From positions 8,122,001 to 8,186,000 of the forward strand of contig OY744462.1 in NCBI GenBank assembly GCA_963556145.1: a stretch of 64,000 nucleotides of DNA, written 5' to 3'. The stretch comes from Hygrocybe punicea. Its lineage: Eukaryota > Basidiomycota > Agaricomycetes > Agaricales > Hygrophoraceae. Position 1 is the stretch's first letter. Each line of letters starts with the position of its first letter. The position numbers and the translations under genes were made by a program. The notes under the pieces are model-generated. The model saw only the letters and a list, made by a program, of their open reading frames with translations, was not told the origin of the DNA and did not search any database. Shown here one piece after another: positions 25,206-62,944 of this stretch.

Positions 25206-25335
25206 CCCTTCCTTATCCTCTCTTTTCTTTTCTTTTAGTTCATGTCTTTTATAAAGATCCAAAGGCCGCCTGCAGCAAACTCCTCAAGCAGAGGTCCAGA
25301 TGGAAGAAATGGTGAGTTATATACACTATATACAT

Positions 25336-25460
25336 AGGGTTGACCACGGGTTGACCACGGGGCCCAGATTGGGACACCGCACCCGTACCCGCCAAACCCG
25401 TACCCGAGGCGGGTAAAACCCGCACCCGCACCCGTTTGACCACGGGTTGCGGCGGGTTGT
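25336..25460 (+). repeat. Left terminus: TIR and ACCCGY hexamer cluster
   Basis: AGGGTTGACCACGGG repeated once as GGTTGACCACGGGG, then GGGACACC and a run of ACCCGTACCCGCC and ACCCGCACCCG hexamers. It matches the inverted right terminus. The GGGACACC..ACCC..TACC phrase also occurs at 58342-58365 in the same orientation. Confidence 0.7.
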
Positions 25461-25542
25461 GAGGGAGCACCCAGAAGTCGTCACAAACACCTAGCACACG
25501 TCTATTGACGTGGCGCGGTGTTCTGTGATGGCCACACCTTAC

Positions 25543-25985
25543 AGCATATCTTTTCCACAAGACATGGCTCAGCCGAGAGGGACAATTCCCACTCCGAGTG
25601 GGCCAGCCAATCTCGGCCGACCAATATCTTTCTCCAGGGGAGATGGCTTGGCCGAGGGGTCTATGTTCTGAGGGACATGAGTTGGCCGAAGCAGGGGGAT
25701 ATATTGGCCAACCGGTCTGGATATTTTGGCTGGCCATGGGAGATGGATTGGCCGATCAGTCTGGGTATCTTGGCAGGCCATGGAACATGGATTGGCTGAC
25801 AGCCCAGGGTAATTTGGCTGGCCATGAAAGGTGGATTGGCTGACATGTCTGGGTATTTCAGCTGGCCATGGAACATGGATTGGCCGACGGGTCTGGGTAT
25901 GTCGGCTGGCCATGAAAGGTGGATTGGCTGACAGGTCTGGGTATTTCGGTTGGCCATGGATTAGCCAATCCTGGTTAGTATACCG
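25543..25985 (+). repeat. 44-bp minisatellite, copy 1 (plus orientation)
   Basis: After a unique lead-in (CAGCATATCTTTTCCAC.., then CAATATCTTTCTCCAGGG) come about six units of GGCTGGCCATGGAACATGG / ATTGGCCGACGGGTCTGGGTATTTC. The unit of 44 bp is not a multiple of three, so each strand reads through all frames, giving repeating peptides such as GHGTWIGR and FGWPW. Confidence 0.9.
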
Positions 25986-26117
25986 TCAGCCATGGGACAT
26001 GGGTTGGCAAATACCATATATTGGCTTGCTGGTCATTCTTGGCAGATGGTTATGGTCCAGTTGGTTAAAAATATATTACTTTCTTCTGTTCAACTATATC
26101 TTCTCTAATAATATGTA

Positions 26118-29100
26118 TTACTCCATCTTGTTGGAAAAGGCAGTTTCTGCTTGTGCTATCATATTCCTCCACATTACCATTTGTTTTTCCGCATAACAGA
26201 TGTGCCCCCTCAGTCCCAGACCAACTTTGTCACGATGTGCTTCCCATTGCACCTTCTGGTGTTGCAGCCAACGAATCACGTTACCCATTTCTGACTTGAC
26301 GCTTTGCAATTCTTCAGACCACCGATCATATCTGGCCTTGCCACGGAGCCAGTTTACACGATACACTGTATAGCAGTAAGATCTTCCATGAATTGCTGTA
26401 GCAGAACCATTCACCTTCTTGCATCCAATCGTTGTCACCAGTATTATTCCTTTCTTTCCTCCGCCAGATCCAGGGCAGCTTGTGACTCCTCTGGCCCACT
26501 CTATTCTCCTCAAGCATATCACCACTCATCTTGATATCCTCCTGCCTCAGCACTTTGAAACGATCCAAAATGTCTGCATTCCCCCCTAGATTGACCAATG
26601 CTCGACGAGCCTGCCTGTAGCTGGTGGCATATTTACCAACTTTTTGCTGGATGGCATGTATGTCGTCCCATGCTCGAGTCTTCTTCTTCTGGCTGTTTGC
26701 TCCACGAACAGAGGTTCGAAAGATTACCATTTTCTCACCCAGTGTCATCCTCAAGTTTTCCAAACAATCGTTTGCTTGGCCCACCCTGAGTTCCACCTCC
26801 TGAGCCACCAAATTTTCCAAACCCAGCCGAGCACATTCCTCCACTCCTAAGGTCGATGGCATTGTGAGTCGGCAATTTTCTGGCCATTCTGCAACATGGT
26901 CATCATCTTCTTCGTCTACCCCACCCTCCTCATCCACATCCACAATCCAGTCATCAGCAGTGGGATCATAATTGACCAGATTACACTCATCCACATCTTC
27001 ACCAAGTATTCCTTGTATTTTTCTGTGGAACGAGTCGATCCGAGACTGCAGTCTATTTCGCCGATCCTCCAGATTTGCCTTGTCTGTGAAACTGCCTGTT
27101 TTTTGAACAGCACGAGCCATTGTTTTCAGAGTATTCCTGTAGGGTAAACAAATGTCAAAGAGACGATCGATGAGAATGAGGATACATCCTACTGTGCTTG
27201 TTCTATGTTTATTCCTTCATTTAAGATGGTCACCCGACCAGCCATTACATCTTTGGGATTCCCTGTCATCAGTCTCAACCTGATCTCAGCCTGCGATGGT
27301 GCTGGTGAAACATCATTACCGTGTCCAAAACACCAACACTTTACAAGACAAACCTTTCTCCATTCTGACGTCGAATACCCTCAAGTAGTCACCACGGAAA
27401 TCCATTGCCCTTCTTTCTTCTTCATTCCACTCCGCCAGCACTTGCTCATCCACAGTTTTGGAAAGCTCCTCAAAGGCTGCCTTCATTTCCTGCATTCCAT
27501 CTACTGCTTTATCATATCGTTTCAACAAAGACCGAACTGTGTGACAGCTATGGTGATGATATGTATTGATGACATGCCTATGAATCACCTACCCATTCCT
27601 ACCAACCTCTTCCAATTCGAATCCCTCATAAGGTCATCCAAGATCTCACGTCGTTGGGATTTTGACATGAAACGAATAAAACTGGAAATCTTGTTGATGA
27701 TAGCCCACAGTGTCTCCAAAATTTCACCATCCTGCTGACCAGCACCACGAACGAAGTTGAGACTGAATAGGGCAAAACACTTGGCAACATGTGCACCAAG
27801 ATGAAACTTGCCCACAGCCCCAATGATCTCAAGCGCCTCAGGGAGAGTGAGGTGGTCGGAATCGGAAACCCTTTTAGCAAAATTGATCAGCCAACTGCAG
27901 GCAATATCATATTCCACCAGTGCTTGGGTGATACCACTGTGGCACAGCCTATTGAGAGCATTGCATATCGAATAATCAACGTTCATGTGTCTGGTGCAGA
28001 CTCTTTAATAAATTTGTCACGATTCATAGCTCAAAATACATGACTAACCGTTCACCCTTCTGGAAGTCGACGACACTGTGGGGTACAAAGCAACCATGCT
28101 TGGCACATGCACATGCACCGATGCCAGTAGCATATAAGTTATGACGATTGGCGTTTGCTTGGTTGACGGCCTTGTGATTGGAGCACTGTGACCTCTGATA
28201 CATGATCATTGATTTAGCATTCACGAAATTCACAATTCGATAAATACCTCTTTGGACTCCAGGGAAGCTCCCAGATGAGCACGATAAGGTGCATCCTCAA
28301 CCAGATATCCTTGTCCATCGATAAGCCCAACGTCGTCATCAGGCTTCCGCATGTTAATCTGCTCAGCTTTGAAATTGCCATCAACGACGATGCTGGGCCT
28401 GTAAAGCCACCTGTTTCCCTGTTTGGTGTGGAACTACATGAAAGCTGATCAGAATGACCCACTGATGCGGTCTATCCATCCAGTTCTGCAGAAGATTTAT
28501 CCCTGGCTGGGGACATGCAGGGCAAAACAATGCCAGATCACCATTACCAGGCTCCCTCTCAGTGTCATGCCCAAAGCCAAATCGTTTCTTGAGGTGCAAG
28601 TATCGCCACTGTCTTGACACCCTCATTAGCTCACGATAACGATCCTGAACACCATAACTCAGTACTCCGTTCTGTATGCACAATGTAACAAAACAACTAG
28701 TATATCACGAACCAGCAATGTATCTGGAAATGCATTGGAAGACAGTCTCCTTAACTTGTTATAAAAGTTGTTTGCAGACGTTTTGCACTCCATCGAATCA
28801 ATGTAGAAATGATCCAGGAGCTGGAAAGTGAATGCTGACGACGGCCGTTTTGCTGTTGCAGGATACAAATGCATTCGAAGTAGTTGAATATCTCGAGTGG
28901 GGGCATCTGGGCAGGAGCACCATCGGATTCGACGTCGGTAAATTCCATTCGTATGAGTGACAGTTATGATATCTTCCTCGGCGTGAACTGCCAAAGCCGG
29001 ATCCAAATTGTCCTCCTCACCACCACCTGACATAAGAACATCATGCAGATATGTATCTTCGACAGATGGCTGGGGGCCATCTTTTCTGTATGACGGACAA

Positions 29101-29681
29101 TCGCCTCCACCATGGCCAAGACGCATGACCAGGCCAATCATATTAAGGTCATGTTTCAGGAAACATCTGCCGTTCCATATCTCAATTCTGTGGAATGGAT
29201 TATGAATGTGTGTCTGCAAACAACAACGCTGGCAGAATGAAGGGCAACCATAGCAATCAGGGCAACGAATGGTGATATCGGCCATCAGACATGACTGGCA
29301 TGTAACATCAGAAGGGGGGGCCTCAGATGATAAGAGTTCGGAGAGGTATTGCTTGTGAATCGCTTTCCAGGCTTCCATTTCATCATTCTGTGTCTAATTG
29401 ACATGCAATCAAAATCAAGTCGTACAGATAATAGTTGTGTCAACCTTTCCACGCTTATTGCGATGTCTCCTTGTCTGAGGGTCCTCCTCTTCCACAAACG
29501 ACGTTGAGGGCAAGGGAAGATCTTCACTCCTATGTGATTGTTTTACAGGACTTGGCGGACGAATAACTGGACGAGCCTTGACTGTCTTTCCACCTCGTTT
29601 CTTTTCCACCACCATAAATTCAACCTCTCTGGCAAATTCCTTTTTTTTTCCCAACCGGGAAATGACTTTTGATTTCGGCAT
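26118..29681 (-). CDS. KDZ (Kyakuja-Dileera-Zisupton) transposase, intact
   Basis: Ten exons can be read on the minus strand: 29681-29445, 29393-28713, 28644-28463, 28410-28248, 28194-28049, 27990-27593, 27536-27354, 27301-27193, 27136-26415 and 26365-26118. Every intron is 49-68 bp with GT..AG. All phases join, and the total is 3069 nt, or 1022 residues plus stop. Domains in order: a basic N-terminus (PKSKVISRLGKKKEF); a zinc-binding Cys cluster at about residues 111-147 (CQSC..CPDCYGCPSFCQRCC..H, then NPFHRIEIW); IRWCSCPDAP; the RNase H-like core with Asp377 in IVVDGNFKAE, Asp498 in EYDIACSW and Glu559/Glu562 in DGEILETLW; then a long helical region ending in VNWLRGKARYDRWSEEL. The CACAKHGCFVPHSVVDFQKGER motif is characteristic of the family. 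The enzyme should cut and paste its own element. No stop or frameshift was found, so this copy may be active. The ATG at 29681 was chosen as the first in the exon that reads into MPKSKV. Confidence 0.92.
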
Positions 29682-29824
29682 GGATGAACAATAGTTAGAT
29701 GAGTGTGGGAAAAGTGAGAAAATGACACGCCTTATAAAGACCAATACACGAGGCAAAACACATGGATAATAATAAAGATTATTACGTCGCTTGATATACA
29801 AATACATTTGAGGACAGGAAAATG

Positions 29825-31637
29825 TTACAAATCCGATGAACTGTCAGAATCTGATACCATAGTTGGGGCCTCAAACCAACCGGGGACCAATTTAACATCA
29901 CCAGATGAACCCTCCTTTCCTTCCAATACAACCCTTTCCAGCGCATCACCCTGAATGCAATTACGAACAGCTTGCCTGCGCAACGCCCCCTGGAGTTCCT
30001 GACGGAGCGTGGGTATCCGCCCGTCTTGCCATGGATCTTTGGCAGCTCTGATAGCGATCTCGTCACCCAGCATGATGTTCATCATTTCTATTGGGTTTTC
30101 TAAGAAGATTCGGAGGAAGTGCAGCATGTAGATGCCGCAATCATCAAAATTCGGCTGGACAGGTACCTGAAAACAAACGTTCAATTCATTTGCAACACGG
30201 AGGTTAGACGTGGTTCACCTTGGGGGTGATTCTCTTGATAGGTGCCAGCTTTTTCACCTGTCTGGTGTTCTTCGCAATGCAGGCTAGCCATGCATGAACC
30301 AGGGATATATCTTTTTGATGGTGTGCTGGGGGCAGTGAATCGAGAACAAATGTTACGCTAACCGACGATGAGTAAGTTCAATGCAAAGCTGAAATGGATA
30401 ACTACATGTGTAGTCCATCAGGAGGATTTTCTAACAAACATGCAGCAGGATTTGCCACGATAATCAAATACCAGTGGTCACTGATGGTGAAGTGAGATGT
30501 TGCCTTCACGAAAACTGACTACACTCACCCAGTGGGCACAGGAAAGACCAAGTATGGGAGCGAAAATATGTCGATTGCCTTCGTCCACCTCTTCAAACTC
30601 TTCACCCCGTTCTTCCTATGACCAGATTCAGAGGAAATGAAGTTATATGAACAACCAAGCAACGTGCACCTCAATTTCTCCATGAAAAAAGTAATGAATA
30701 TGTGTATGTTTGCCGGCAACTCCGGCTGATGGATTGCTGCTTGCTGCAGAGCGTAACTGAAACGGGGAATAAGCTACTGCACTGGAGGGTTGAAATGTAC
30801 CTACTGGGTACCGAAATTAATCTAGCCAATCCTTTTCCAAACGTTGATATGACATCCACGGAACACCACCCCGCTCTGAGTATTTTGCAACAGTACACGT
30901 GTTTTCAAACCTAGAACACCTGAGGTGAGTGACGGGCCTGGCCATGGCAATGTGATGTACATGACCGCATCTGGCCTTTCATTCAACTGCAAAAATCGGC
31001 CATTGGTTTCGATGTCATTTCTGTTGAAGTAGAGATTAGTTGTGGTATGATGAATGTGTGATACTCACTGTAAATACTTGATGCTACTTTCGCCCAGTGT
31101 ACTGGTGAGCAAACTGAGCAAATCCGCATACATATCTGATGTCCAGGATGCATGCTCGTTGTCGAAATAAATGCCAATTTGATGTTTTGAAACAATCTCT
31201 GAGTATCAATTGCAGTCACATGTAAGCTTATTGAAATGGTGGCGTACCATTGTTCTCTCTGCCTAAAAACACACATGTGGCTTTATCCACATGCCGAGAA
31301 ATAAGCACATACAATACCAAGCCGCATATCTGCTCTTCATTTGGTTTGGTGGCCTACAAAATTACTTGAATATCAAGGGTGGGCTGTTGAAGACTGACAA
31401 TCACCTGGCAACTGACAACATCGCGTTCCACCAATAGTTGCATGGTCACAGAGCTGTCCTCTGTCAAAATACAACAAACACTTGTATACAACAGTGAGTG
31501 ATGATTAGGATGCTGAACATGATGACTTACCATGATCCTTTGCATTCAAACTCGACAGATGTGGTCCCTTCCGGAGATTTGTGGTAGGTGTTTCCACCAG
31601 AGACCGTGAAAAGGACGGGGAATAGGAGAGATGGCAT
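29825..31637 (-). pseudogene. Ulp1-type SUMO protease, one nonsense codon
   Basis: From ATG 31637 (MPSLLFPVLFTVSGG) about ten short exons join in phase to the TGA at 29825. The N-terminal 200 residues (..KHQIGIYFDNEHASWTSDMYADLLSLL..) are unassigned. The C-terminal half is a Ulp1/C48 cysteine protease. It reads ERGGVPWMSYQRLEKDWLD, then YALQQAAIHQPELPANIHIFITFFMEKL, then KNGVKSLKRWTKAIDIFSLPYLVFPV, with the catalytic His in GDHWYLIIVANP, the Asp in FVLDSLPPAHH, and the Cys in QPNFDDCGIYMLHFLRIF. The single lesion is a TAA at 30819-30817, directly after WLD, where family members have several more residues before the next helix. A small deletion is likely; an unrecognised splice site cannot be excluded. 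SUMO proteases of this kind remove or mature SUMO and often accompany KDZ and related transposases. The stop codon lies 144 bp upstream of the transposase ATG, on the same strand. Confidence 0.75.
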
Positions 31638-31737
31638 ATTCGATTGATGTGAGGTTATGCACGTGATGGTTGAGAACAAAGAGAGCTGTTCAATCATGTG
31701 ATGCCGGGTCACATGTAATGTGGTCCCGTGACATCAC

Positions 31738-32475
31738 ATGTGTGATGTCATGCCGCTGTTGGACACATTTAACGCAGTAGGGAAATTGGATAGCAAAGCA
31801 GAGGTAATAGCAGTGCTGCACAAATTGCACATCCTCTATGAGATTGCTCATTCCCCACGTAGCCATTATTCTATGTTTTCTAGTAGATATGATACCCTAA
31901 AATGGGCATTTGTTTTTATTTGGTCAGAAATCACCTTATTCCATCACATCCTGAGTCGCACCATCAACGTTGGCCAAGGTAATTTCTCTTGATTCCAACA
32001 CACTACCATCTTTCTGCATGGCAATAATCACTGGTACGGCAGCAAATGACAGCGCCGTTGTATCCTTGGTAGGGCGCTGTTCCAGGGAAATGTGGAACGC
32101 CGCATTTACGGCGGTTCTTGTTGATGTGCGGCCTGGTAAAGCTGCTGCTTTTCACGACATTGAATGCTTCCCCCAGTGTGTTTACAACATTACACTGACC
32201 CCACTTTTGATTGTTTAGGATGTGCCTGAAATCTATTCGTGTCTTTTCATGCGGCCATCACTGAACAAGAACAATATTCTGTCCGATGGCTCGGCATGAT
32301 GCGATCGGAAGACGCAGGCCATGCACGAACGCCGTTCCTGAAAGGAGGCTGGCCACACATGTTTGGTGTGGACGAAAATGTTCGTATGCGTATGGGATAT
32401 TTCGTTCACCTAGCCACTAGGTTTGTTGCAGGTGTGCTACATCCCTTGATTGTCAGTGAAACCTGTGAACGTTAA
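31738..32475 (+). other. Unassigned open frames between Ulp1 and Tet genes
   Basis: Three plus-strand frames (31738-31992, 31970-32218, 32239-32475) may be exons of a small gene. The middle one reads MAIITGTAANDSAVVSLVGRCSREMWNAAF..PGKAAAFHDIECFPQ, followed by GTGTGT..TTTAG, a possible 43-bp intron. No domain was recognised and no convincing full model emerged. It starts within a spacer shared with the divergent Ulp1 gene start at 31637. Confidence 0.25.
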
Positions 32476-32732
32476 TTTTCACCAACCGCCCACATATACA
32501 GTTGAAATCAAGGCAAAGGTGTTCATTATTCGGCAGCGACGCTGTAATTAAACATCTGTGCAACAAAGTGCCATTCACAAGCTTCCTGCCCAGAGCATGA
32601 ATTTCAAATGTAACAATATACAGTACTGACGTTTCCGTAACTACGGGCCTTCGTAACTACGGGCCTTTGCAACACTGCCATTTACGACTTTCCTAGCCAG
32701 TATATGAATGCACACAACAACGAGTCGCGCCT

Positions 32733-32768
32733 GTGATGTCACGTTTGGATGTCCAAACGTGACATCAC
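32733..32768. repeat. 36-bp near-perfect palindrome
   Basis: GTGATGTCACGTTTGGAT is followed directly by its reverse complement with one mismatch. A related, longer palindrome with the same CACGTT core is at 62664-62740. Each contains two TGACGT-like bZIP/CRE half-sites (GATGTCACG / CGTGACATC) facing one another. Confidence 0.85.
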
Positions 32769-32839
32769 GGATGTGACTTGTCACCATCCAAACAGCTTCC
32801 TGCCAAGGTTTCCACATGCATTAATTGTGGAATCAGTAC

Positions 32840-33277
32840 GTGCCAAACCGATGGTGGCCGGTCCTCGGACATGGGTGCTTGCTGCTGCCAGTCAACCTGG
32901 AATGAAGAGGTGGGTGAATCTCACCGATTTGCTTGCCAGGCAACCTCCTTGCAACAGGCCTGGCGGTATACCCGTTTGCATCCAAGGTGTGTGTCTTCTC
33001 ATTTTAATATTGCGCTTTTAGTAGTGATTCACTTTCATTACAGCTTCTCTTTCCATCATGTTTTGTGGCGGTGAATAGGCTTACTGACAATTTTACTGCG
33101 TTCAGATAAGTTATCCATGAGCGCGAGTTGTGGCATCAGTGCGTGCCAAACCGGTGGTGGCAGGTCCTCAGACATGGACGCTTGCCGCTGCCGGTCAACC
33201 TGGAATGAAAGGGTGGGTGAATCCCCCTGATTTCCTTGCCAGGCAACCTCCCTGTAGTGGGCCTGGTGGCCTTGTTG
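32840..33277 (+). repeat. Tandem pair of approximately 140-bp units
   Basis: Copy A (32840-32975) and copy B (33137-33277) share ATCAGTgCGTGCCAAACCG, GGTCCTC, GTCAACCTGGAATGAA and TTGCCAGGCAACCTCC. In each, one plus frame is open and encodes SVRAKPVVAGPRTWVLAAAGQPGMK and a DFLARQPPC..GPGG tail. A third copy lies inverted at 62165-62310. The preserved peptide suggests a duplicated exon, but no gene could be built around it. Confidence 0.75.
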
Positions 33278-33547
33278 ATGTCAAGAAAAGTAAGTCTTGC
33301 TGTACTTTTGACTATTCTATCATTCACCAAACGGCACAGGTATCAATCAGCTTATAAATGTGCATGGTCTGTATATGTATATACACTGAATCTGCTCGGC
33401 ATTGCCATTTTTTGTGCTATATTGTGTGTTATATCATAGTTTGTCATTCTTGTGACATGGCGAAATTGCTGTATGCAGCAAATTATTAAATGCTAAAAGT
33501 TCTAACCATAATAACACCTTATTAAATTGTACCGCCTCAAGGCCACC

Positions 33548-35162
33548 ATGTGTACTAAAACCGACCTTCCCAATTCTCAACCAATCTCACTTCTCAACCA
33601 TTATGTATGCAGACAGAATCCCCTCAAAGAATGCACAATCCAAGGCAATGGAAGCCTCGCTTTCCGTCAACATGAAAACAAAGGATTGTGGTCTGGCTCC
33701 AAATCTAAAGAAACATATGTGGACGAGGCTGAGAAGAATCCTCTCAAACACTACATCGTATTATAGGAAGTCGGGCATGCACCCTCCGAAGTCTCCTGTA
33801 GAGGAATGCAAACGGCTGAGGTCAGATCCATGCTGCTTCAATGTCATATCTTACATGTTTTGTAGATCACGTTTGATGATGCTGAGGGATCAGCTTCCAG
33901 TTAGCAAGGGCTTGGGAGATTCGGCCCCAGATTGCAAAACATTCTCCAAGTCGGACATGGTCTCAGAATCTGAACTGGAGAGGGTTCTCCTCACTGTGGC
34001 AGCCGCGATTTTGAACCCTAGTACGTTGCTGCCATGAAAGTCGGCATATTTAGACTGACATCTTGCCTCAAAGTAATTGTGCCCTTGGATGCGAATAGAC
34101 TGGCAAATCGAGTGAAGAATATCAAGGACACTTCGGATGCTGACAATGAAAACCTACTCAGGTTTTTCAGGAGATTCACATTGGACATGTGAATGAACCA
34201 GCTACAGTAATTGACACGTGTGGTTCAATTTTGGTCTGGTATCTACCTGATGTTGTAACTCCAAGACGTATTGTGAGTCACTTGCCCCCTGGAAATATGG
34301 TTTTTGACAGTACCCACTGCGACACAGGAGGAATTGAATGTCAGTGCTGAAATGATAACCGAAATTCTGGAAGAATCCTATTCAGAGTCCCTCAAAAAAC
34401 TTGAGAAAGGGAAAGATCCGCAATGGAGGAAAGATCCAAACATTTTCTTTCCACCTCCAAACCCACGATTTCACCCAGGATCAGTGGATTTCGCTGCAGC
34501 ATGGTTTGCTCAGGGTAGAGAGGTAACACCTTTAGTTAGTCGTCTGTTTTACATGAGCTGACCGCCTGTTTTTTCAGCGACTTACCGATAGGTTGATCAC
34601 GTCGACAACTCTTCGAACAACTGAAGCCACCATGTGGATGGCTGCAATCGAACCCAGCGAGCTGATCTTCAACGCAATTACTGTGTTAACCCATCAGTCA
34701 TTGTACACAGCTGGCCTTCTGGCTGTGACGAAAATCCGGGACGGCGAAACGATCGAGAACGTGGAAACACACGAAAATGCTAAGGAGTGGACATCTGTTT
34801 ACACTGGAATCGCCGTTATCGTTAACAGGATTACAACTCGACACAGAGATGCTGGAGGGTGTCCAGAATGGTATGATTTGCTGGCAAGTTGTGGGACACA
34901 TACGAACGCGGAACTAGCCATCCCTGAGTTGGATGCTACGTTCTCTTATTCGCCAGGAACCGTCATCGAAATTTGTGGCAAGGTTCTCAGTCACAGTGTA
35001 GGCAGATGGGAGGGCGGTGAAAGAATATGCATGGCGCATTATATGCGAAACATGGTACATGACCGTCTCAACATTGACAAGCCCACCTGGAGCCGACACA
35101 ATGTGTTTGCAAGGGAGATGAATGCCAAGTTTCGGGCATCACAGGAATGGAGATGGAATTAG
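33548..35162 (+). CDS. Tet/JBP-like 2OG-Fe(II) dioxygenase, intact
   Basis: Seven exons join in phase: 33548-33551, 33613-33820, 33866-34020, 34074-34111, 34171-34272, 34328-34522 and 34578-35162. The total is 1287 nt, or 428 residues. The catalytic double-stranded beta-helix is in the last exon: IVNRITTRHRDAGG places His323 and Asp325 of the HxD iron motif; LAIPELDATFSYSPGTVIEICGKVLSH places the distal iron ligand at His373; and GGERICMAHYMRNMVHD supplies the 2-oxoglutarate-binding Arg383. The preceding TCGSILVWYLPDVV block is typical of the basidiomycete members. This superfamily includes TET and JBP enzymes that oxidise 5-methylcytosine or thymine in DNA, so this protein probably acts on methylated DNA in the nucleus; its substrate here is inferred. 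In basidiomycetes these genes have been reported linked to KDZ transposons, as seen here. The start at 33548 has a GCCACCATG context and needs a tiny first exon; ATG 33603, contiguous with exon 2, is the alternative. Confidence 0.88.
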
Positions 35163-35555
35163 CTATTGTGCCAAGGGAGATATCATCCTAACGTAAAAGT
35201 ACGACGGCTACTGTTGCATGCTTTGTACGACTGTAGTCAGAAACCTCTGTGGAACTAAATCTCGTTATCCTCATTCATGGACAACGAAGGCCTATGAGTT
35301 TCAACTAACAGATAGCTAGACAGTGTTAGACAGTGTTCGGAGAATTTCCATGGCTTTACATTGATAACTCTGTCACATTGACAACTCAGTCAATTCGAAA
35401 TGTGTACTTAAATGTGGCAATTCACGTGATGTGGTCACACGTGATCACAGTAAACCGTGACGCGTCATTTTTTTTTTTACCTTCTGCACCCTTATCATCT
35501 AGCCTCAGCCTCTCTTGAATTGCTCTCAGATACACTCAAATTGAACATTTTGGCA

Positions 35556-38500
35556 ATGTCGTCATCAGCAAGCACCTCGGCGCTGTCAATTGCTTCTCTA
35601 CATGCGTCTGTAATGTCTGGCAGTAATTTCCGAAGCATGAATGTGTTCCAGGACTTCCCGTGGGTCAATGGCACGCCTCTTGCTGAAGATTCACTTGAGA
35701 AGGCTATCGTAACCTTAATTGGCAATCAGTCTGCTCTAGGAAACACACCGTCCACCTTGGCTGTGATGGTGCGTCAAATCTCCCACCTTGTAACATTGAC
35801 GGTCAACTTGTCTGCTAGGCCCTGGCAAAGCAATTGGATTATGTGAATCCCACAGGTGAAATCTCACGTAAAGCCCAAACCATCCAAGAATACCTCTCTG
35901 CTGATGGCTCTGCTATGCGTGATGTGGCAAGGTGGACTACTGTGTACCGGAATGACCTCCTGGTAGCGGCTCACTCAATCCTTCGCTATACCCTGCTCGA
36001 TAAGCTCATGGACGCTGTTGGGTTGCCTCGTCATCCAAGTTTCAAAGTAATTCGGAGATCAGCGAAACCAGAGATGAGCGAGAAGTTGACCAAGGTGAGT
36101 TCACCATTCACATTTGGGCAGACGTTTTAAGTTGACGTTTGCACACCGTCTTGAAGCTCTACAAATTTCTGAGAGACTGGAGTAAGCCGATCACGAAGCT
36201 TCGTATGACATGCAAAAGTCTATTAATCACGCAACAAGATCAAGAAGTGGTGGGTGTTTCAGCCATGGCAGTGCCGCAGAAAGTGGTGTCCAGTATGGAC
36301 ACCATCCCTATCTTTGCAGTCGCTCTCCCAGCACACTTGACACCAGCCCAAAAAGAAGTAGAAATGAACATCCGGATCCTTTACCGTGCATCTGTCAACC
36401 TCGAATCCTCCGACGTCAACCAGATCCTCCTCAATCTAGAGCTTCTTGCATTCTCATTCACGTGGTTTGGCCAGGTATGTGACGTATGTCCTATATGAAA
36501 CGTGTGTCAGATTTTGTACAAAAACAGGGCAACTCATATGTAGACTGCGACTTCACAACATGGGTGGAGAAGCTACAGAGGTTGGGATTGCATTACAATC
36601 ACATTACGCCTGCCGCAAATAAATAATTCACATGGTTTCAGGATGGCCAAGAGTGTTGATCTACCGTTGCAAGACTCATTTGTCAATGCCCTCACCACCA
36701 AGTCTTTTGGAGGTTTAATGTATGATCGGATGAGAAATCTATTCCACCTAAGCCTCACACTGTCACCCATAATTACTCTTCTCCCACGACGTTTCAATCA
36801 TGAATCTCATGCACGGCCATCTCTCATGGCAGTGAGTCCATTATTTGTGCCAACTTGGACGTAGTTGACATAAGGAAAAGATCACGTTTGCCTTGGGCAA
36901 TGAAAGGCCTCCATTCCTTGCCAAAACGGAGAGGGCGCTTTGGAGGGCCATTACAAGAATATGTTTAGGATCTTCGGCGATGCAGGAGCTGAATGTATTC
37001 CTCCAAGAATACGATTTGTTGGAGGACAGCGTCCAGGGAACGGAACAGGGCTTCAGTTGGTTTTGTTTTGACAGTACGCCGCCTGTCTCTACATTTATCG
37101 CTGGGACTGACAACAGATGTTGCAAGATAAGGAAGTGGATGACCTGACCAACTCTGCTAGTCAGCTTACGGTGGCAACGAAACAAAATGTTCCAACAGAC
37201 CCCAAGGCAAAGAATGACAAGCCTGCGTCAGACAACCCTCTGTCCAGCGATGATGAACCGCTTCAATTGAAATTAACAAGGAAGAAGAGGGGTGGACCAT
37301 CGAAGGAGCTTGCTTCAGGTGGACAGAGCTTCATGTTGACCCAAAGCCAGGCCAAAATGTTGGACAAGGTTGGGGACTCTTCGAAAGGGAAGGAGAAGCA
37401 GAAGGCAGAGAAAGTCCAGAAGGAAGAGAAAGTTGTGGTTGTGCCGGGGAGGTCCTATCGGAGGAAGAAAAGATCCACTCGCTGGTCGACAAGAAGTTAT
37501 CCCAAGTCCAAGAAACGTGATGATCTTGAGGATGAAGATGACGATGATGACGAGGATGACTATAAGAAAGCGCCAGAGAAAGTGAACGTGATCATCGACC
37601 TTACTGGAGATGTAAGTGATTCAAGAACGTGTCATTTGTCATGAATGAATATTTTGATAGGATTATGGGGAACCTGATTTGCTCAGCCGTCCAGCACCCA
37701 TTGTGTGTCTTTTGTTGTTCGATAACGTGCCACCCCACTGATGATTCATAAAGCAAGCATCAGAGGGTGTTCATCTCACGATGTATGATGGTGACGCTGT
37801 ACATGAACCCGTTGAACATGTGCACTATTCACCATCCGTCGTTGTACGTTGATGTCTGATTTTTGTACCGTTTGATTGTTAACTGGTAAGCACGATACAG
37901 GCAAAAGTGGAACATGCATTGTTGCGGGAAACATATGAAATGATCCGATCCAGTTACATTGATGGGGTTCCTCCACATCGGCTGCCCAGTGCAAGAGAAC
38001 AAATGTATGATCCTCATGCATCATGTGTGTTCGTGGTGGAATGGAACATCTTCAAGTCGATGGATGCTGCAACAATTCAAGGAATCTTTCGTCATCGTCA
38101 CATCCTCGTGCTCAATGCCCCTGTAGAAACAGTGGAGTTTGATAGGGAAGGTTTGGAGACATTGGGGTCTTTGTCATCCATTCATTCAGTGCAAGGTCCG
38201 TTTCCGGAGCGATGTCTGGGCATAGCGACTAAAGTGCCTTTGTTAGTTGCTGAATTGCGATTGGTGCCTAATATCGAGAATATGAACAAACCTGGCACAT
38301 TGGAGACATTATATCAGCTTGCGCTTGACCCTGACAACGAAAGGGTTTTCAATTTCCTCGACCTTCCCATGGGTCATATGATGTTGGACCCACCTCCAAA
38401 ATTTCGGTGAGCAACCTTGTTTTGAAGATCGAACACGAGATTTACCTGTCTATTCGTGAAAAGGTCCTTTTCATCATCTGAGGTTGCTTGGCACGAAACC

Positions 38501-40641
38501 CGCGGCCGACTGGGGTTTGTCCGCGAGCAGCCTTTAAATGACGATTTGGCTTGGGGAACGGCAGCGACAGCTCGAGCCATTTCTTGGACACACGTAGATG
38601 ATGATGGCTTTGGCATGGTGGTTATTGTCAGGACTGGCGCAAAGTACTGGGTCCTCATGAGGCCTCGAAGGGATGCCGAATGGGATCGCAAGGCGGGCAA
38701 TCTTGCGACTAACAAGGCCTATCCTCAGGAGTGGGAGCCGAGAAAACATGGTGGGAAAGGCTTGTGGGAAGCAGAAGGATTACTGCTCACAAAGGGTTCA
38801 GTGCTGTAAGTGGGAATATATTTCGTGACAACTCGGATGTGTGCTGAAACACACAGTTACATGAGGCCGTGCACCCCACATTATGTCCTCGGTGTGGAGC
38901 ACTCCATTGTGAATGGGCGTCATCTCTATGCGACATCAACTATACGGGATACCTGTTATGGGATTATCCATACTTTCGTGATGAGTCATACCATCACAAA
39001 CGCGGAGCATAATGTGACACGTACATTTCTGCGCCGACTTCTCACCATGTGGATGGAGTACTTCACGGGGAACCACGAATCATCATGTGAGCTACTTTGG
39101 GCGAGGTTTACAAATTCCTGAAGATTAAAATGCTCACTGCACAGCTACTGTCTTCACCAAGTCTCATATGCCCAAGATCGAAACCGAAGACGGCTTCCTC
39201 GACCTTGTGATTGTGGGAAACCTGATTGAGCTTGCGGATATCATCAACAGGAAGTTCTACACCCATACCATATCGGCTGACATTCATGAGGAACAGAATA
39301 TTGCACGATGCAGATATAGACGTTTCCAAATCTGGTTTGCGGAACATTTTGTTGTCTTCATGGAAGACCACTGGATCAGCCCCTCTTACATTTTCCAACG
39401 AAGTCTTTTGGAACTATCTGCTGCGATTGTTGGGTATAAATGGGACAAGGATGGGGTTGTGAAGGCACCAGCACATTGCACAGCGAAAGCTGTTGAGTCA
39501 GTGGTCCGCCGACATTTTCAAAACGATTGGCCAGATTTGGTGCCAAAGCTGAATGAGCTGCTTCAGATCCCACCATCGGAATTCTTCTGGACCGGCCCCA
39601 AAATACACATTCAGACCCGTCCAGTGGAACCCATCAGTCCCATTCTTGTTGAATGCTTAGATTTTCCACCTCATCCAATTCTGCTCATCAACACAACTAC
39701 TGGTGAAGGCGAGGTACAGGATGACACAGATACACGGGAAAAGGCGAAAGACAATGAGCGTGACAAAGGGGAGGGCACCGATGGTGAGGAAGAGGCGGAT
39801 GATCCATCTAGGAAGGTGGGAGATTTAGTGGATGCAGCTGGCGAAGAGGTAGCCACAGAGGAAAACCAGGATCCACCTGCAACGGTTGGATGTGCAAATG
39901 ACATGGCTGTGGACACTGAGAGGGAAGAGGATCCACCTGTAACGGTGGGAAATTCAGCCGACGTGGCTGGGGAAGATGCGGGAGAAGAAATGGACGTCGC
40001 TGGCCCGAATGAGGAGGATCCACCTGAGCAGGTGGGAAATTCAAATGACACAGCTTCGTGGAATGAGGACGGTCTAATCATGCCCCTGGGTATGTCAAAT
40101 GAGGAAGATGTAGACCGTGACGAGGGGAAGCAGCAGGAAAAGAAGGGGGGGGAGGAGGGCGCGGTGCAGGGCAAGGGGGTGCAGGCGGGGGAGGTGCAGG
40201 AGGAGGGGGAGGAGGATGAGGAGGGGGAGGAGGAGGAGGAGGGGGAGGAGGAGGAGGAGGAGGAGGAGGAGGGGGAGGAGGAGGAGGAGGAGGAGGAGGA
40301 GGGGGAGCTGCAGGAAGAGGAGGAGGAGACGGATGGGGATGGGGCAGAGGAGGAGGACGAAGAGGAGGAGGATCGAAATGAGATGGTGGGGAAGTTAAAT
40401 GCCCAGAGTGTGGACAGTGACGAGGGAGAGGATGACGATCAAATGGACATCTCATCTGGCAGTGATGCAGTGTATAATGATTTCGATGGATCACCCCAAC
40501 CCCCGACACCCCCTGTGAAACGTCCTCGGAGGGAAGACTCGGGTACAATAAATTGCCTCAACAGCTTGTATATACACTGATATGATCATTCACACAGATT
40601 CACCACTACGTTCCACAGACCTGAAACGCCGTCGTAAGTAG
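35556..40641 (+). CDS. Large JmjC-domain protein, intact
   Basis: Fourteen exons join in phase: 35556-35768, 35819-36094, 36157-36474, 36528-36580, 36642-36831, 36875-37073, 37127-37611, 37661-37702, 37754-37843, 37901-38406, 38464-38805, 38857-39086, 39145-40542 and 40598-40641. The sum is 4386 nt, or 1461 residues. Residues 1-410 or so are unassigned, with a YRASVNLE..FTWFGQ block. Residues 417-577 are Lys/Glu-rich with KKRGGPSK and RSYRRKKRS basic patches, nuclear in character. The JmjC core is at about 680-980: WTHVDDDGFGMVVIVRTGAKYWVLMRP gives the iron ligands His834 and Asp836 and the 2OG-binding Lys851, and YMRPCTPHYVLG gives the distal His913. A tail of about 480 residues contains DPP(V/A)TVGNS repeats and a long Glu tract from GGA codons. 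JmjC proteins hydroxylate or demethylate histones; the residues needed are present, but this agaricomycete subfamily has no known substrate. It lies 394 bp after the Tet-like gene, same strand. Confidence 0.85.
40142..40380 (+). repeat. (GGA)n tract coding poly-Glu
   Basis: A run of GAGGAG/GGGGAG triplets lies inside the last large exon of the JmjC gene. It is in frame as Glu/Gly, so its length may vary without breaking the protein. The opposite strand gives a spurious poly-Pro frame. Confidence 0.9.
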
Positions 40642-40963
40642 CTGGGAGGATCATATCATTCATACTGCTTCCTACTCATGTATATTCCTGACATCGCAAT
40701 GCATCATCTGCCTCCTCTGCTGTTAAATGTATTCCTTGTAATAAACACCGAACCATTGAGAGGCATGGGTAGAGGAAAATGTTATGTCACGTTGGGCCTT
40801 GCACAAGTGACATGTCACAAGTATTATATATTTATGATTTATTCCACATATCACCTTTTTAGGCACATTCAACAAAGCCTATTTCCGCCGTGTAGAACGT
40901 CGCAAGGGTTGACTGCTTGTGGTAATGCAAATTGTGAGCTGCATCCCCACAAACGGGATAGCT

Positions 40964-41290
40964 TTACCTCGCATTTTTACCAGCATTTCTTGAGCTGTCC
41001 AACTTCCCTGGGCATCTTTGTTGTGCAACATCACTCTCCCGTGCCTCGTTTGTCTCCCTCTCCCGCGCCTCTCGTGCCTCCCTCTCCTGGGCATCTCGTG
41101 CCTCTTTCTTCCGGGACTCCTCCCGGCCCTTTCGTGCGTCCCTCTCCTGTGCCTCTCGTGCCTCCCGTTCCGCCCTCTCCCGCGCCTCTCGTGCCTCCCT
41201 GTCCTGTGCGTCTCGTGCCTCGCGTGCCTCCCCTTCAGCCCTCTCCCGTGCCTCTCGTGCCTCCCTCTCTTGGGCCTCTCACGTCTCCCG
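40964..41290 (-). repeat. EAREARERE-type coding minisatellite
   Basis: About fifteen variants of an 18-30 bp unit (GAGGCACGAGAGGCACGGGAGAGG) form the would-be tail of the preceding gene. The repeat stays in one minus-strand frame throughout, apart from the single TGA at its beginning. The peptide would be a long, highly charged single helix. Confidence 0.8.
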
Positions 41291-43147
41291 CTCTTGTACT
41301 TCTTGTAACTGTCTTGCCATCTCTCGGTTCTGTGCTGCTACCTGTTCTGCTTGCTCCTTTTGCTTTGCTTGTCTCTCCATCTTCTTTTTCATCCACAGAA
41401 GCTTCAACGTCGATGTATCGTCATCCATCTCGCTGTCGCCACCACGTCCATCAAAGCTACCACTACTTGCACTCTCGTCACTCCAACTATCGTCGCCCTC
41501 TTCACTACTGACTGCTTTCTGTTTTCCCTTGCTGGAATTGGCGGCATTTTCTGTTTTCTTCTTGGGGTGGACTGTCTTTAATGCTGGAACATTCAATTTG
41601 GATCTGTGAGGTCTGATAGCATTCGATTGTGCAGCTCCCATAGCACTCGATTGTGCAGCTCCGGCAGCAATAGATGTCGTTTGCCTACTGGAGTTTGATG
41701 GCGCCGAACGATCGGTCCTGGCCAAAGCAGCAGCAGCATGGAACTTCTTTTTTTGCACGAATGCATTTGGTGCTCGCTGGTTGGTCTTCAGGACGGTTTT
41801 AAATCGGAATGGTTTTTCACCGAGTTTCTGCCGTTGCAACCAAAATTGGTGGATGGTCCGAAGTTCATCGAGTTTCATTTTCCACGGTTCCCGTAGTTCT
41901 ACGTGAGAGGGAAAGTAGATGTCCTCGATGTATTGGTTTCGATTTTGTCCAATTTTTCCCCATGGAACAGCGACGACGCTGTTGTTGCACATCTGACCTT
42001 CAAATGAATATGAGTACAGTAAGCTTGGCCAACGTCGAGGTACGTACGATATGACATGGTCATCAGTGATCTAAACATGTTTCTTACATCGACCAATGAC
42101 ATAGTTGACACATTTGGTACCATAGGAAAACCGTCCTCATCGATCTCAAGCTTGAATGGCAGGCTTTTGTCATATCTGGTCGTTGGACCACCATCATCGT
42201 CTTCACTGTCGGTCTTCGCTCCATCGGATTCATCTGGAACACATTACATGGGAAAGATGGAACAATGGCTAATCGTACCGTCATGATTAAAAAGGGACCC
42301 CAAATGTTCATCCCATTTGGTCCAAATGTCATCCCCGTTATTTTTGAAGACGCTGATGAACTTCCTGTGTACCGGGGCCGGTGTCTCGAACCTCACAGGA
42401 AGGGAATATAAGTACGTGATTGACACAAAGCAGGAATCGACCCACTTTCCTTTGGTTACAGTCCCATCTTCGTCTTCATATCCCACCAACATGAATATTT
42501 TTACTCCCATCTGCTCATCTATGTCCTTCATAAACTTCATCGCCGTCTTACCGAAACCTTTTGCTGCTCGGCTGGATAAGGTAGAAGATTAGCATCATGC
42601 AGACGAAAGAAGATTATTAGTACCGTCGTTTGACTTCCAAGGGTGGACCTTGCTGGTTCCAGGCGTCGGCAAGAGCTTCAAATTCTTGTTTGTTCTCTTC
42701 GGTCAAGGAACCGTAAATATCACTCCACGCTTTGCCATAGCGCTTGATGTAGCCGGGCTTTCCTCCGGTTTCTCCAGACAGCTCCACCGTCCTAGCGTCA
42801 ATTTCCTTGGTCATCTTTTCTCTTATAACCAACCTTGCATTCCACTTCTTTGTATATTTCGGAGCATCCTCAGTGTCGCTCTCCAATTTTGACCGATGAT
42901 TGTGGTACCAAGTTTGAATTTTCTGTATTCATGGTATAATGCTGTTAGGCTTATCTGAAGGGTAGTATTAGAATATACAGACCTGTTGCATATTTGGGGG
43001 CCATTGTGTGTTGGTTTGTTGTGCCGATTTTTTTAAAAGTTTCCTGATCCCTTTCAGGACACGAATACGATCTTCACCAGTGGATCTCCTAAAATTAGGA
43101 TAACCGTCCTCGAGGATCTTAGTAAATTCTGGGGTGATCCACTTCAT
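41279..43147 (-). CDS. Five-exon cargo protein with truncated helical tail
   Basis: From ATG 43147 exons 43147-42983, 42922-42624, 42571-42279, 42233-42048 and 41997-41279 join in phase (1662 nt, 553 residues). Blocks: MKWITPEFTKILEDGYPNF; RIRVLKGIRKLL; IQTWYHNHRSK; KWNARLVIREKMTKEIDARTVEL; KPGYIKRYGKAWSDIYGSL (an HMG-box-like feel, not proven); KFMKDIDEQMGVKIFMLVGYEDEDG; YIEDIYFPSHVELREPWKMKLDELRTIHQFWLQRQ; then a Ser/Ala-rich basic linker and MKKKMERQAKQKEQAEQ. The TGA at 41281-41279 cuts a charged helix: the same frame goes on for 104 more codons of (E/R)A(R/Q)ERE repeats to a TAA at 40966-40964. The stop is in an ACG-TGA context consistent with a CpG change from CGA. Related pieces occur at 12.1-12.5 and 13.2-13.6 kb. 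It is convergent with the JmjC gene. I know no function; it may be a DNA-binding or structural partner of the element. Confidence 0.7.
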
Positions 43148-43507
43148 TTAGGCAAAAACTGAGGAGAATGAAGGCAAATGTCGTTGTCTGGAACAAAGGC
43201 AGAACGTCGTTGTCCGGAACAATGGAAGAATGCCTCGTGGTGAACATGAGGTGATGACAAATCACGTGATTGATGGCAACAAATAGCAATGTGGATTACA
43301 AGTAGATGACTCAGGGGATTGCAAGTCGGTGCAGGACGTGATTAGGAGAATATGATGAATTGTGAATATTGATAAATTCCAGAACACAAGGATAGAGGAG
43401 CAAGTACCAAATCTGTGGCACATGGCAAGGGGTGGGTAAGAGTCCAAAGATGTAAGGTGGGTATGTTCAGAGCAGGCTGAATGAACAGATACAACCCACC
43501 TGTTGCA

Positions 43508-44012
43508 TTTGTGGCAACACTGTTCCATGGCCAACCAAAATACCCAGACCCGTCGGCCAATCCACGTTCCATGGCCAGCTGAAATACCCAGACCTGTCGG
43601 CCAATCCACGTTCCATGGCCAGCCAAGATACCCAGCCAGGTCGGCCAATTCATGTTCCATGGCCAGCCGAAATACCCAGCCAGGTCGGCCAATCCACGTT
43701 CCATGGCCAGCCAAGATACCCAGCCAGGTCGGCCAATTCATGTTCCATGGCCAGCCGAAATACCCAGACCCGTCGGCCAATCCACCTTTCATGGCCAGCC
43801 AAGATACCCAGTGCAGTCGGCCAATCCATGTTCCATGGCCAGCCGATATATCCCTCTGCTTCGGCCAACCCATGCTTCTCCGAACATGGAACCCTCGGCC
43901 AAGCCATCTGCCCTGGAGAAAGATATTGGTCAGCCGAGATAAGCCAGTCCACTTGGAGTGGGAATTGTCCATCTCAGCTGACCCATGTATCATGGAAAAG
44001 ATATGCTGAAAG
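43508..44012 (-). repeat. 44-bp minisatellite, copy 2 (minus orientation)
   Basis: It has the same unit and lead-in as copies 1 and 3 but is inverted, with its lead-in (CAGCATATCTTTTCC) at 44012 pointing toward the right terminus of the element. About seven units. Long frames are open on both strands. Confidence 0.9.
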
Positions 44013-44019
44013 GGCTCTG

Positions 44020-44924
44020 ACGGCTTGGTGGTCCCTCCGACACCTCACCGTCGTGTCGTCGTCTTGTCTTCGTGTGGTCCCTCAACTGACCAGCCGGCAC
44101 CTCGTCGTCGTCGTGTCATCGTCATCATGGCCTGACCAGTAGGTCAGAGCCGATGTCGACGACGCTGTCGACTGGTGGTGGTCCTCGTGTCCTCGTGTCC
44201 TCGTCATCCTCGTTGTCGTTGTTTTCACCGTCGTCATCGCCATCGTCACGTAATTGCCACAACGAATTTATTTGTTAGCACTGGATGGACGAGAGAGGGA
44301 CAGGGCACATACCTGGAGGCTGGGTGGTGGGAGCACCACCTCCCAGCCGTTTTCCCTCCATGGTTGACGTTGACGCGGTTGAGGTCTTTTTGCCGCCTGC
44401 TTGGTCGTGGTCCTGGTCGTTTGAGTTGGTGGTGGTGGTGACCAACCCGTGACTTCGCATACACGTCGGCTCGCGTTTCGATGCCGTTAGGCCACGGGGC
44501 TCGCACTTGCGACGTCTTGGCGGCGGCGTCGTGGCTTTGAGCTGGTGTTGGTTGGGCATTGGTGCCAGCGTGGTGGTCTGGGACGCGTTTAGACGTGTTC
44601 TCTTTCACGGGCGTGGGGTTTTGGGTTGGCATTCGCATGGTCCTTGGTTGTGGTAGTATGGGCGTTTGGAAGTGTGTTTGGGCCGGGGTGGAGCATTCGG
44701 ATGCGTTTTCAGCGGGGGTGGTGGTTCTTGGGAGAGTGTTGAGGCTTGCACGTTTGTTTTAGGTGAGTGGGAACGCGTTGGCGGCTGTTTGAGATGCTGT
44801 GGGCGTGTTTTTTTGCATCGTCTCTGTCTGCACTGATTGTCTAAGAAAATATAGTTAGTTTAATGTTGAATTACAAAATAAACTTACCTCAGGGCACATA
44901 GCCCAGTCGTAGTTGCCAATCCGT
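44020..44924. other. GTC/CTC-rich and GTGG-rich low-complexity spacer
   Basis: Runs of CGTCGTC, CCTCGTGTCCTCG and GGTGGTGG make long but meaningless frames on both strands. A splice-like GTAATTG and a CAAGTGCGAGCC..GCCGCC block were noticed, but no gene could be supported. Confidence 0.4.
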
Positions 44925-45051
44925 CAAGAACCGCGGTGTTGCGGGTGCGGGTCACGGTTTGGTTGCGGTTGCCAAATTTGGCAACCGTACCCGTACCCGC
45001 ATCACCCGTGACCTAAAAACCACGGGTGAACCCGTACCCGTGGTCAACCTT
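44925..45051 (-). repeat. Right terminus: TIR and ACCCGY hexamer cluster
   Basis: Read on the minus strand from 45051: AAGGTTGACCACGGG, GTACGGGTTCACCCGTGG, then GGGTACGGGTACGG hexamers and a palindromic GTTGCCAAATTTGGCAAC. It is the partner of 25336-25460. The flank outside is (TA)n. Confidence 0.7.
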
Positions 45052-45059
45052 ATATATAT

Positions 45060-50214: not shown

Positions 50215-50745
50215 CAAAGAGCATGACTTCCATTCATTTGCATGGAAAAGGAGTTGGCACCAAGGCCTACCAACAATACAACAACCAGCTCATCAATTGC
50301 AGTCAGTATTGCCTGCTTTGAGTGAAGTAATGGTCTACGATTGCCATACAGGATCGTCAAAGGGCATCACTGCCATTGAGATAAAAGGGGTTGGCACCAA
50401 GGCTTACCAACAATACAACAACCGGCTCATCAATGGGAGTTAGTATTGCCTGCTTTGAGTGAAGTAATGGTCTATGATTGCAATACAGGATAGTCATTGG
50501 GCATCACTGCCGTTGAGTTGGCACCCAGGCCTACCAACAATACAACAACTAGCTCATCAATAGGAGTTAGTATTGCCTGCTTTGAATGAAGTAATGGTCT
50601 ACCAATGCCATACAGCATCATTAAAGGGCATCACTGCCAGTCATAGGAAAGGAGTTGGCACCAAGGCTTACCAACAATACAACAACCAGCTCATCAATTG
50701 CAGTCAGTATTGCCTGCTTTGAGTCAAGTTATGGTCCACGATGAT
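50215..50745 (+). repeat. Tandem repeat, approximately 137-bp unit, four copies
   Basis: Units begin at GAGTTGGCACCAAGGC-type sequence at about 50251, 50388, 50515 and 50652. Each contains CCAACAATACAACAAC, CAGTATTGCCTGCTTTGAG and a GGGCATCACTGCC segment. One unit is about 10 bp shorter. It is non-coding and lies directly after the broken transposase. Confidence 0.85.
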
Positions 50746-60797: not shown

Positions 60798-60798
60798 G

Positions 60799-61560
60799 AG
60801 CCCTTTCAGCATATCTTTTCCATGATACATGGGTCAGCCAAGATGGACAATTCCCACTCCAAGTGGGCTGGCTTATCTCGGCCGACCAATATCTTTCTCC
60901 AGGGCAGATGGCTTGGCCGAGGGTTCCATGTTCGGAGAAGCATGGGTTGGCCAAAGCAGAGGGGTATATTGGCTGGCCATGGAACATGGATTGGCCGATG
61001 GGTCTGGGTATTTCGGCTGGCCATGAAACATGGATTGGCCGACTGGGCTAGGTATTTCCACTGGCCATGGGAGGTGGATTGGCCGACCGGTCTGGGTATT
61101 TTGGTTGGCCATGGAACATGGATTGGCCGACTGCCCTGGGTATTTCGGGTGGCCATGGAATGTGGATTGGCCGACCAGTCTGGGTATTTCGGTTGGCCAT
61201 GGAACATGGATTGGCCAATGGGTCTGGGTATTTCGGCTGGCCATGGGAGGTGGATTGGCCGACCGGGCTGGGTATCTTGGCTGGCCATGGAACTTGGATT
61301 GGCCGACTTCCCTGGGTATCTCAGCTGGCCATGAAACATGGATTGGCCAACCAGTCTCGGTATTTCACTTGGCCATGGAACATGGGTTGGCCAAATGGTC
61401 TGGGTATTTTGGCTGGCCATGGGAGATGGATTGGCCAACAGGTCTGGGTATTTAGGCTCTGGATTGGCCGATGGTCTGGGTATTTCGGCTGGACATGGAA
61501 CATGGATTGGCTGACCTCTGTTCATTTATTGGCTGGCCATGAGACATGGATCGGCTGACT
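60799..61560 (+). repeat. 44-bp minisatellite, copy 3 (plus orientation)
   Basis: The longest copy, with about thirteen units after the same lead-in as copy 1. Frames of 141-239 codons are open across it on both strands. It ends in degenerate GGTTGGC/TTGGCCA units that trail to about 61810. Its first base abuts the truncated reverse transcriptase. Confidence 0.92.
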
Positions 61561-61844
61561 GTACTGGGTGTAGCCATGGAACATGGGTTGGCAAAAGCTT
61601 TGGTCATATGACATGGCCATAGCACCTGGGTTGGCCAAAGCTCCAGCTACATTGGGATGGCTACAGCTCTAATTACATCAGCTGTCAACATGATATGCAT
61701 TGGCCAACACTCAGAATACATTGGCTGGTCATGGCACATTGGTTGGCTGTTCCTAATGGGTCTCTGGCTGGTTGTGGGTCATGGATTCACCAGTGCCAGA
61801 GATATAATGGCCAGCCATGATACGGCTGACCTTGTGACATAGGG

Positions 61845-62160: not shown

Positions 62161-62164
62161 CTTT

Positions 62165-62916: not shown

Positions 62917-62944
62917 ATTGCTGAGCCACCCCGACGGTCGGGTT

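Follow-up and report, generated by a model that had tools for sequence, protein, structure and literature searches.

A multicopy KDZ transposon of Hygrocybe punicea carrying TET, SUMO-protease and probable JmjC-like genes, inserted into an older hAT-like MITE

A KDZ-type DNA transposon of about 18.5 kb was found in a 64,000-nucleotide stretch of the Hygrocybe punicea genome (contig OY744462.1, here C2:8122001-8186000; this whole stretch is called the window). It carries five genes, encoding the KDZ transposase, a Ulp1-family SUMO protease, a TET/JBP dioxygenase, a probable JmjC-like 2-oxoglutarate (2OG)/Fe(II) oxygenase (J) and a further protein (G5). The element is present in dozens of copies whose genes move as one unit, and in the window it was inserted into an older hAT-like miniature inverted-repeat transposable element (MITE). 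Compared with published transposons that combine KDZ and TET, the presence of Ulp1, J and G5 suggests a larger, new toolkit. Its most likely use is a short burst of desilencing, with help to transposition as the main rival.

The genome (92.2 Mb, 42 contigs) was searched, and six further copies of the element were compared with the window using 30 kb fetched per copy. The left limit of alignment to the window fell at 25526-25533 in all six. The right limit was 44017 by BLAST in five, and the same right terminus was located in the sixth (copy A4) by motif search. With the end patterns, these limits place the element at 25533-44017 on the plus strand (18,485 bp, 5'-CACACCTTACAGCATATC...GATATGCTGAAAGGGCTC-3'), its ends reading CACACCTTACAGCATATCTTTTCC...GGAAAAGATATGCTGAAAGGGCTC. 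The outermost 9 bp are not inverted; a 15-bp inverted repeat (CAGCATATCTTTTCC/GGAAAAGATATGCTG) starts 9 bp in. The window insertion is flanked by 7-bp target duplications, TGATGGC at 25526-25532 and TGACGGC at 44018-44024, differing by one CpG transition. Such duplications were recognised in six of the seven copies, four exact (GATTGCA, ATGCTAA, ATGGACT and TGCAATG) and two with one CpG transition (the window and copy A5, GCATATG/GCATACG); none was found when looked for in copy A6. Searching the genome with 24-bp end patterns, allowing up to two mismatches, yielded 107 left and 154 right matches, against none for reversed controls.

A sequence-only reading of the window had described a single element of 19.7 kb (25336-45051) bounded by inverted GGGTTGACC termini. 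The inverted sequences (25327-25351 and 45036-45060) are real, and they are accompanied by a near-perfect 8-bp duplication (TATATACA at 25327-25334, TATATATA at 45053-45060). They belong, however, to a roughly 1.2-kb hAT-like MITE whose ends are TAGGGTTGACC...GGTCAACCTTA and for which 8-bp duplications were seen at three other copies as well as in the window. The interrupted MITE is present in the window as a left piece (25335-25532, plus strand), starting with TAGGGTTGACC and holding one copy of the KDZ target duplication, and a right piece (44025-45052, plus strand), ending with GGTCAACCTTA; the termini of the earlier reading are the outer ends of these pieces. At least 42 left and at least 44 right matches to the outer termini were found genome-wide. 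Among the best matches, six end pairs at other places have the GGGTTGACC termini separated by just 1.2-3.8 kb, with no KDZ match inside any of the six. When the window flanks were joined, MITE copy L007 aligned across the junction ungapped over 519 columns (96.7%). L004 and L006 did so over some 1,247 columns (94-95%, 11-12 gaps) and L002 over a stretch of 285; in L003 and L005 both sides also match, but about 50 bp extra are present at the insertion spot. Because these copies (L002-L007) match both sides of the joined junction, the outer sequence is an older MITE that has been interrupted. With MITE copies running through the insertion point, and with all six other KDZ copies ending at 25533/44017 and having no outer termini, the 19.7-kb extent is refuted and retains virtually no probability.

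End pairs were built from 100 left and 100 right matches, the first listed of 107 and 154, respectively. Among the matches listed, 41 pairs were obtained, of which two share an ends region with a longer, overlapping pair and the largest may have been wrongly paired. At least 20 pairs enclose KDZ, TET, J and G5, two have an incomplete set inside and 19 have none of it. Because of these 19, cargo-less derivatives with the true ends exist, as is usual for DNA transposons. The sequence-only reading had named ends without cargo as evidence that would speak against it. The outer ends do occur in this way because they are those of a different transposon, and the true ends do so in the 19 pairs. The search for further copies that it proposed established a multicopy element with target duplications and moved the borders to 25533/44017. 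Part of a second, cargo-less derivative lies in the window on the minus strand (60798-62315); it shares the element's right end, has a 44-bp array and runs past the window. It covers 60798-64000 and continues to C2:8189809, its left end lying 7,012 bp away outside the window, and is devoid of cargo-gene matches.

The joint movement of the five genes, also proposed beforehand, was confirmed by clustering matches across the genome. KDZ groups were formed from matches longer than 250 bp (150 of 219 candidates were scored), and partners were sought within 35 kb on one side only. Clusters were counted from 100 of 123 TET, 93 of 105 J, 119 of 150 KDZ, 70 of 83 G5 and 68 of 73 Ulp matches, weaker or split ones being excluded. 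On this basis, Ulp1, TET, J and G5 lay on the same side of 38 of the 58 KDZ matches with at least 82% identity, in one orientation in 37. TET matches had a KDZ match within 35 kb in 75 of 99 cases, whereas 200 random draws averaged 10 and never exceeded 17; for these draws, the lengths of three contigs were approximated by rounded guesses, and a TET match on a small contig was excluded.

The linkage extends to a diverged family (KDZ about 57% and J about 41% identical). At KDZ matches of 53-60% identity, TET, J and G5 were present at 11 of 20, all in one orientation, and the Ulp1 exon was detected at none of the 20. The order in the cluster list is KDZ-TET-J-G5, and TET and G5 are reversed in orientation between this family and that of at least 82% identity. 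A sizeable family mostly lacks the toolkit: at 24 of 28 KDZ matches of 46-52%, none of the four partner genes was found, and the same held on the side examined for 8 of 11 matches below 46%. This last, most diverged KDZ group (37-41%) has TET alone, about 4-5 kb off on the other side and so outside the one-sided count, at several loci (C2:4777522, C3:2956814, C8:1013493 and others). No J, G5 or Ulp1 match among those used fell in the same cluster, and this group is nearer to the published two-gene (KDZ and TET) form. Separately, at C20:47071, C36:791584, C39:5897254 and C8:6290846, TET (62-63%) and J (45%) always lie about 7.6 kb apart, with no KDZ match nearby among the matches used; J of this locus type was also matched at C35:8338, close to where a contig begins.

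All five multi-exon genes of the sequence-only reading were recovered by a splice model, in which the exon models of KDZ, Ulp1 and G5 are approximate. The KDZ gene (26118-29681, minus strand) encodes a transposase with a CxC2 cysteine cluster (PF18758, E 4.1e-39, positions 5-217 of 217; PF18803, E 2.3e-26), so that both the transposase domain and the associated cysteine cluster that mark the KDZ superfamily are present. The Ulp1-family gene (29825-31443, minus strand; PF02902, E 8.6e-15) is ULP2/SENP7-like, the closest solved structures being yeast ULP2 (5lnb, E 4.5e-8) and SENP7 (3eay, E 3.7e-7). Its protein, whose exons were joined by eye, has HW, D, Q and C in order; these are presumably the catalytic His-Asp-Cys of the Ulp1/C48 family and the Gln before Cys. 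DSL and QPNFDDCG align at the same places of ULP2; HW is aligned only within a weak segment apart from these. The TET/JBP gene (33603-35162, plus strand; PF12851) is closest among solved structures to CcTet of Coprinopsis cinerea (PDB 7vpn, E 2.4e-21). HxD, the equivalents of Gly331 and Asp337 and the distal His were identified, and HRDAGGCPEWYD aligned with CcTet HRDTSGPIEGMD, as in an AG-type TET. The meaning and numbering of Gly331 and Asp337 follow PMC12730594. The earlier description of a KDZ transposon carrying TET and a SUMO-type protease with catalytic residues is upheld.

The J gene (35637-40641, plus strand) has 14 exons in the model and encodes 1,421 amino acids with an acidic C-terminus. 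A JmjC-like HxD...GxKxW...H core lies in the exons at 38464-39086. H212, D214, G217, K229, W231 and H291 are invariant in four aligned types, the L053 type (HxD lost) being excluded. From the structure alignment, P0007 was removed as misaligned. The HxD, K and H are kept across types down to 42-44% identity, and the arrangement of H212, D214, K229 and H291 is taken by us to be the facial triad HxD...H and cosubstrate Lys of JmjC oxygenases. No credible relative of J was found by sequence in the PDB; PF08007 matched only one of four members (E 0.0094), and the top PDB profile match was a cupin-4 protein (E 1.2). A second search with a four-type profile yielded six metagenome proteins, and viral contigs, also searched, gave no useful relative. 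G5 (40964-43147, minus strand) has a charged repetitive C-terminus, and 4-5 of its 6 modelled splice sites are kept in other copies. Searches of Pfam, PHROGs and the PDB were fruitless for G5; one metagenome relative was found, and the structure model of its N-terminus was not usable (predicted local distance difference test score, pLDDT, 45).

Four of the genes had been described as open, which holds for the exons checked. In the window TET, a base near 34162 that all six other copies have is missing, and the reading frame shifts there. Neither stops nor frameshifts were seen in KDZ, J or G5, and in the single Ulp exon checked the only stop is the terminal one. Of the seven copies, one had lesion-free checked exons for KDZ, three for TET, one for J and two for G5. 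A stop counted in all seven Ulp copies is an artefact, because the terminal stop falls within the single exon checked. For KDZ, the check omitted the final modelled exon because a stop interrupted its frame.

The inverted subterminal minisatellites reported earlier correspond to arrays with a 44-bp period at 25703-25960 (plus strand; longer in other copies) and at 43522-43850 (minus strand, inverted relative to the left array). The array core contains a CpG (ATTGGCCGA). In the diverged KDZ family, both copies fetched contain 44-bp arrays of their own, located on the KDZ side, and in one of these copies the likely terminus is CACACCTTGCATCGG, placed by likeness to the family A terminus. The 44-mers of the two families aligned with a score of 34, against a mean of 16.9 and a maximum of 30 in 300 shuffles. 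Because the same period and a related sequence are found in both families, the arrays suggest a functional binding array; that G5 might be its reader is a guess. Between Ulp1 and TET, a 175-bp direct repeat with units 303 bp apart lies at 32792-33269, with extra units in copy A3.

Base changes were counted in four blocks of the KDZ element across the seven copies, and in a TET-less MITE from five copies, one of them from the window. In the KDZ element, 282 CpG transitions at 995 CpG sites and 154 other changes (singletons) at 11,213 other sites gave rates of 0.283 per CpG site and 0.0137 elsewhere, an excess of about 20-fold. In the MITE, 63 CpG transitions at 232 CpG sites and 13 other changes at 959 sites gave 0.272 and 0.0136, again about 20-fold. 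The genome encodes DNA methylases (five PF00145 matches, all over the cut-off). Since non-CpG differences between copies are rare, the burst of copies was recent. The simplest reading of the counts is that settled copies are CpG-methylated and then deaminated, with or without TET. Protection confined to the element ends was considered and rejected, as there is no gradient of CpG decay; the unique end stretches hold only 12 and 8 CpG sites.

Selection was estimated for J between families A and A'. Omega (dN/dS, the ratio of nonsynonymous to synonymous substitution rates) was 0.22-0.25 for one exon and 0.19-0.25 for the next, at dS 0.25-0.45; these are raw values that include CpG changes and come from two of the four fetched A' loci. 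With CpG-type changes set aside, pN/pS, from three of the four A' loci, was 0.29-0.42, so that constraint remains but is weaker than raw omega indicates. Naive dN/dS within family A (TET 0.35, J 0.38, KDZ 0.61, G5 0.75 and Ulp 0.65, the pooled Ulp value including copy A5, which lost that region) was rejected as proof of selection because CpG transitions distort the values.

On balance, the toolkit probably gives a short burst of desilencing during which the element moves. In such a burst, the KDZ transposase would act on the terminal and subterminal repeats, TET would oxidise 5-methylcytosine (5mC) and perhaps also N6-methyladenine, the ULP2/SENP7-type protease would remove SUMO from chromatin or transposition proteins, and J, as a probable JmjC-like 2OG/Fe(II) oxygenase, would remove or edit a protein mark. 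Together these activities would open a brief window of expression for movement, after which new copies would be re-methylated and decay by CpG deamination. Self-desilencing by the element is plausible but unproven, and several results weigh against it. The CpG-transition excess in KDZ copies is about equal to that in the TET-less MITE, and no gradient of decay was seen in bins along the element; together these leave no sign of lasting protection in cis. Equal decay may be compatible with an effect that is brief, or with one that reaches both elements in trans. Singletons within family A are near neutral once CpG changes are separated. HxD was lost at two of the 12 fetched J loci (L053 and L057), and for J no Pfam domain was found over the cut-off. 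Its structure model had a mean pLDDT of 33.7 and was not usable, the input being the window read-through with two introns kept. The JmjC assignment made by the sequence-only reading is partly upheld, on the strength of the conserved catalytic residues and not of a curated domain over its cut-off or a fold.

The cargo could instead serve the mechanics of transposition, with Ulp1 and J modifying transposase or repair proteins and TET opening methylated ends for transposase binding at the CpG-containing subterminal repeats. This is rather unlikely, although the CpG in the array core and the undiminished CpG decay in KDZ-element copies fit it, and Ulp1 domains, which recur in several transposon groups, have been suggested to function in transposition or repair (PMC2836005). 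TET and two proteins of chromatin-mark types exceed what transposition is generally known to need, and HxD is kept at 10 of the 12 fetched J loci. That the genes were trapped once, are passively carried and are now decaying is more improbable. The near-neutral singletons of family A, the scarcity of lesion-free copies (one in seven for both KDZ and J) and the other KDZ families of this genome, mostly without J and G5 matches, would agree with passengers. Decay within copies is, however, expected for any dead copy, and the J ratios between families, also with CpG-type changes aside, and the TET-J-G5 block kept in the family with KDZ about 57% and J about 41% identical argue against passive carriage.

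The favoured reading, a burst of desilencing, has a more specific and tentative form, which is possible but doubtful. The element may hold a multi-enzyme, sequence-targeted desilencing kit, composed of a DNA oxygenase, a JmjC-like oxygenase, a ULP2/SENP7-type deSUMOylase and an adaptor (perhaps G5), acting in a brief burst at fast-evolving 44-bp arrays as an independently evolved counterpart of the plant VANDAL/VANC system with KIU. VANC is, to our knowledge, not an oxygenase. VANC proteins remove methylation via fast-diverging tandem-repeat targets (PMC5735166, PMC10398659), and some VANC genes carry a Ulp1 domain (PMC13317346). The Arabidopsis VANDAL/MULE elements with VANC and the Ulp1-bearing KIU form thus share with the present element anti-silencing genes borne by the element and a Ulp1 domain (PMC5735166, PMC10398659, PMC13317346), and also noncoding tandem-repeat arrays that diverge fast between related elements. 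The transposase is unrelated and the kingdom another, and any array-binding protein of the present element is hypothetical. The parallel is a likeness of working, close in design, and not kinship. In Ginger1 transposons with Ulp1 or OTU domains, a Ulp1-family protease domain is likewise found on a DNA transposon, but it is fused there to a Gypsy-integrase-type transposase, whereas the present element has a separate ULP2/SENP7-like gene (PMC2836005).

CcTet (PDB 7vpn) is the best solved relative of the present TET, a predicted enzyme whose window copy is frameshifted. Iyer 2014 is said to be a further source for TET-positive Kyakuja transposons of Agaricomycetes. TET in Kyakuja and other fungal transposons has already been published (Kojima 2025, PMC12730594). 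The KDZ transposase, an AG-type TET with HxD and the Gly331/Asp337 equivalents, 7-bp target duplications and the start CA are shared with those elements (PMC12730594). Kyakuja-1_LB and -2_LB have termini 5'-CA..TG-3' (PMC12730594), whereas the present element reads CA...TC. It also differs by the 15-bp inverted repeat 9 bp from each end and by the 44-bp arrays, Ulp1, J and G5. The lack of terminal inverted repeats given for Kyakuja fits the outermost 9 bp here, but not the repeat set in from them. Because it starts with CA but ends with TC, it was not filed as Kyakuja proper. A word search of the PMC12730594 main text returned no SUMO, Ulp1, JmjC or subterminal, and a literature search of titles and abstract starts, covering papers outside subscription journals, returned no description of KDZ, TET, Ulp1 and JmjC together.

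Elsewhere in the window, positions 50246-50742 hold a tandemly repeated sequence whose periods are 137 and 264 bp (82-89% matches).

Oxidised 5mC has been reported as enriched in transposons of Laccaria and Coprinopsis (PMC8889193), and hypermutation has been cited as undetected in Agaricomycetes (Kojima, PMC12730594), against which stands the strong CpG-transition bias in repeats of an Agaricomycete seen here. The CpG result also limits the hypothesis, as over evolutionary time the copies were no better protected than the TET-less MITE. Transposon-borne TET is known; here TET is joined by three further genes, two of chromatin-mark types, in a family recent enough that at least 20 end-to-end copies hold the gene set. 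As TET travels with chromatin-type genes in a recent multicopy family, the anti-silencing idea becomes testable within one genome.

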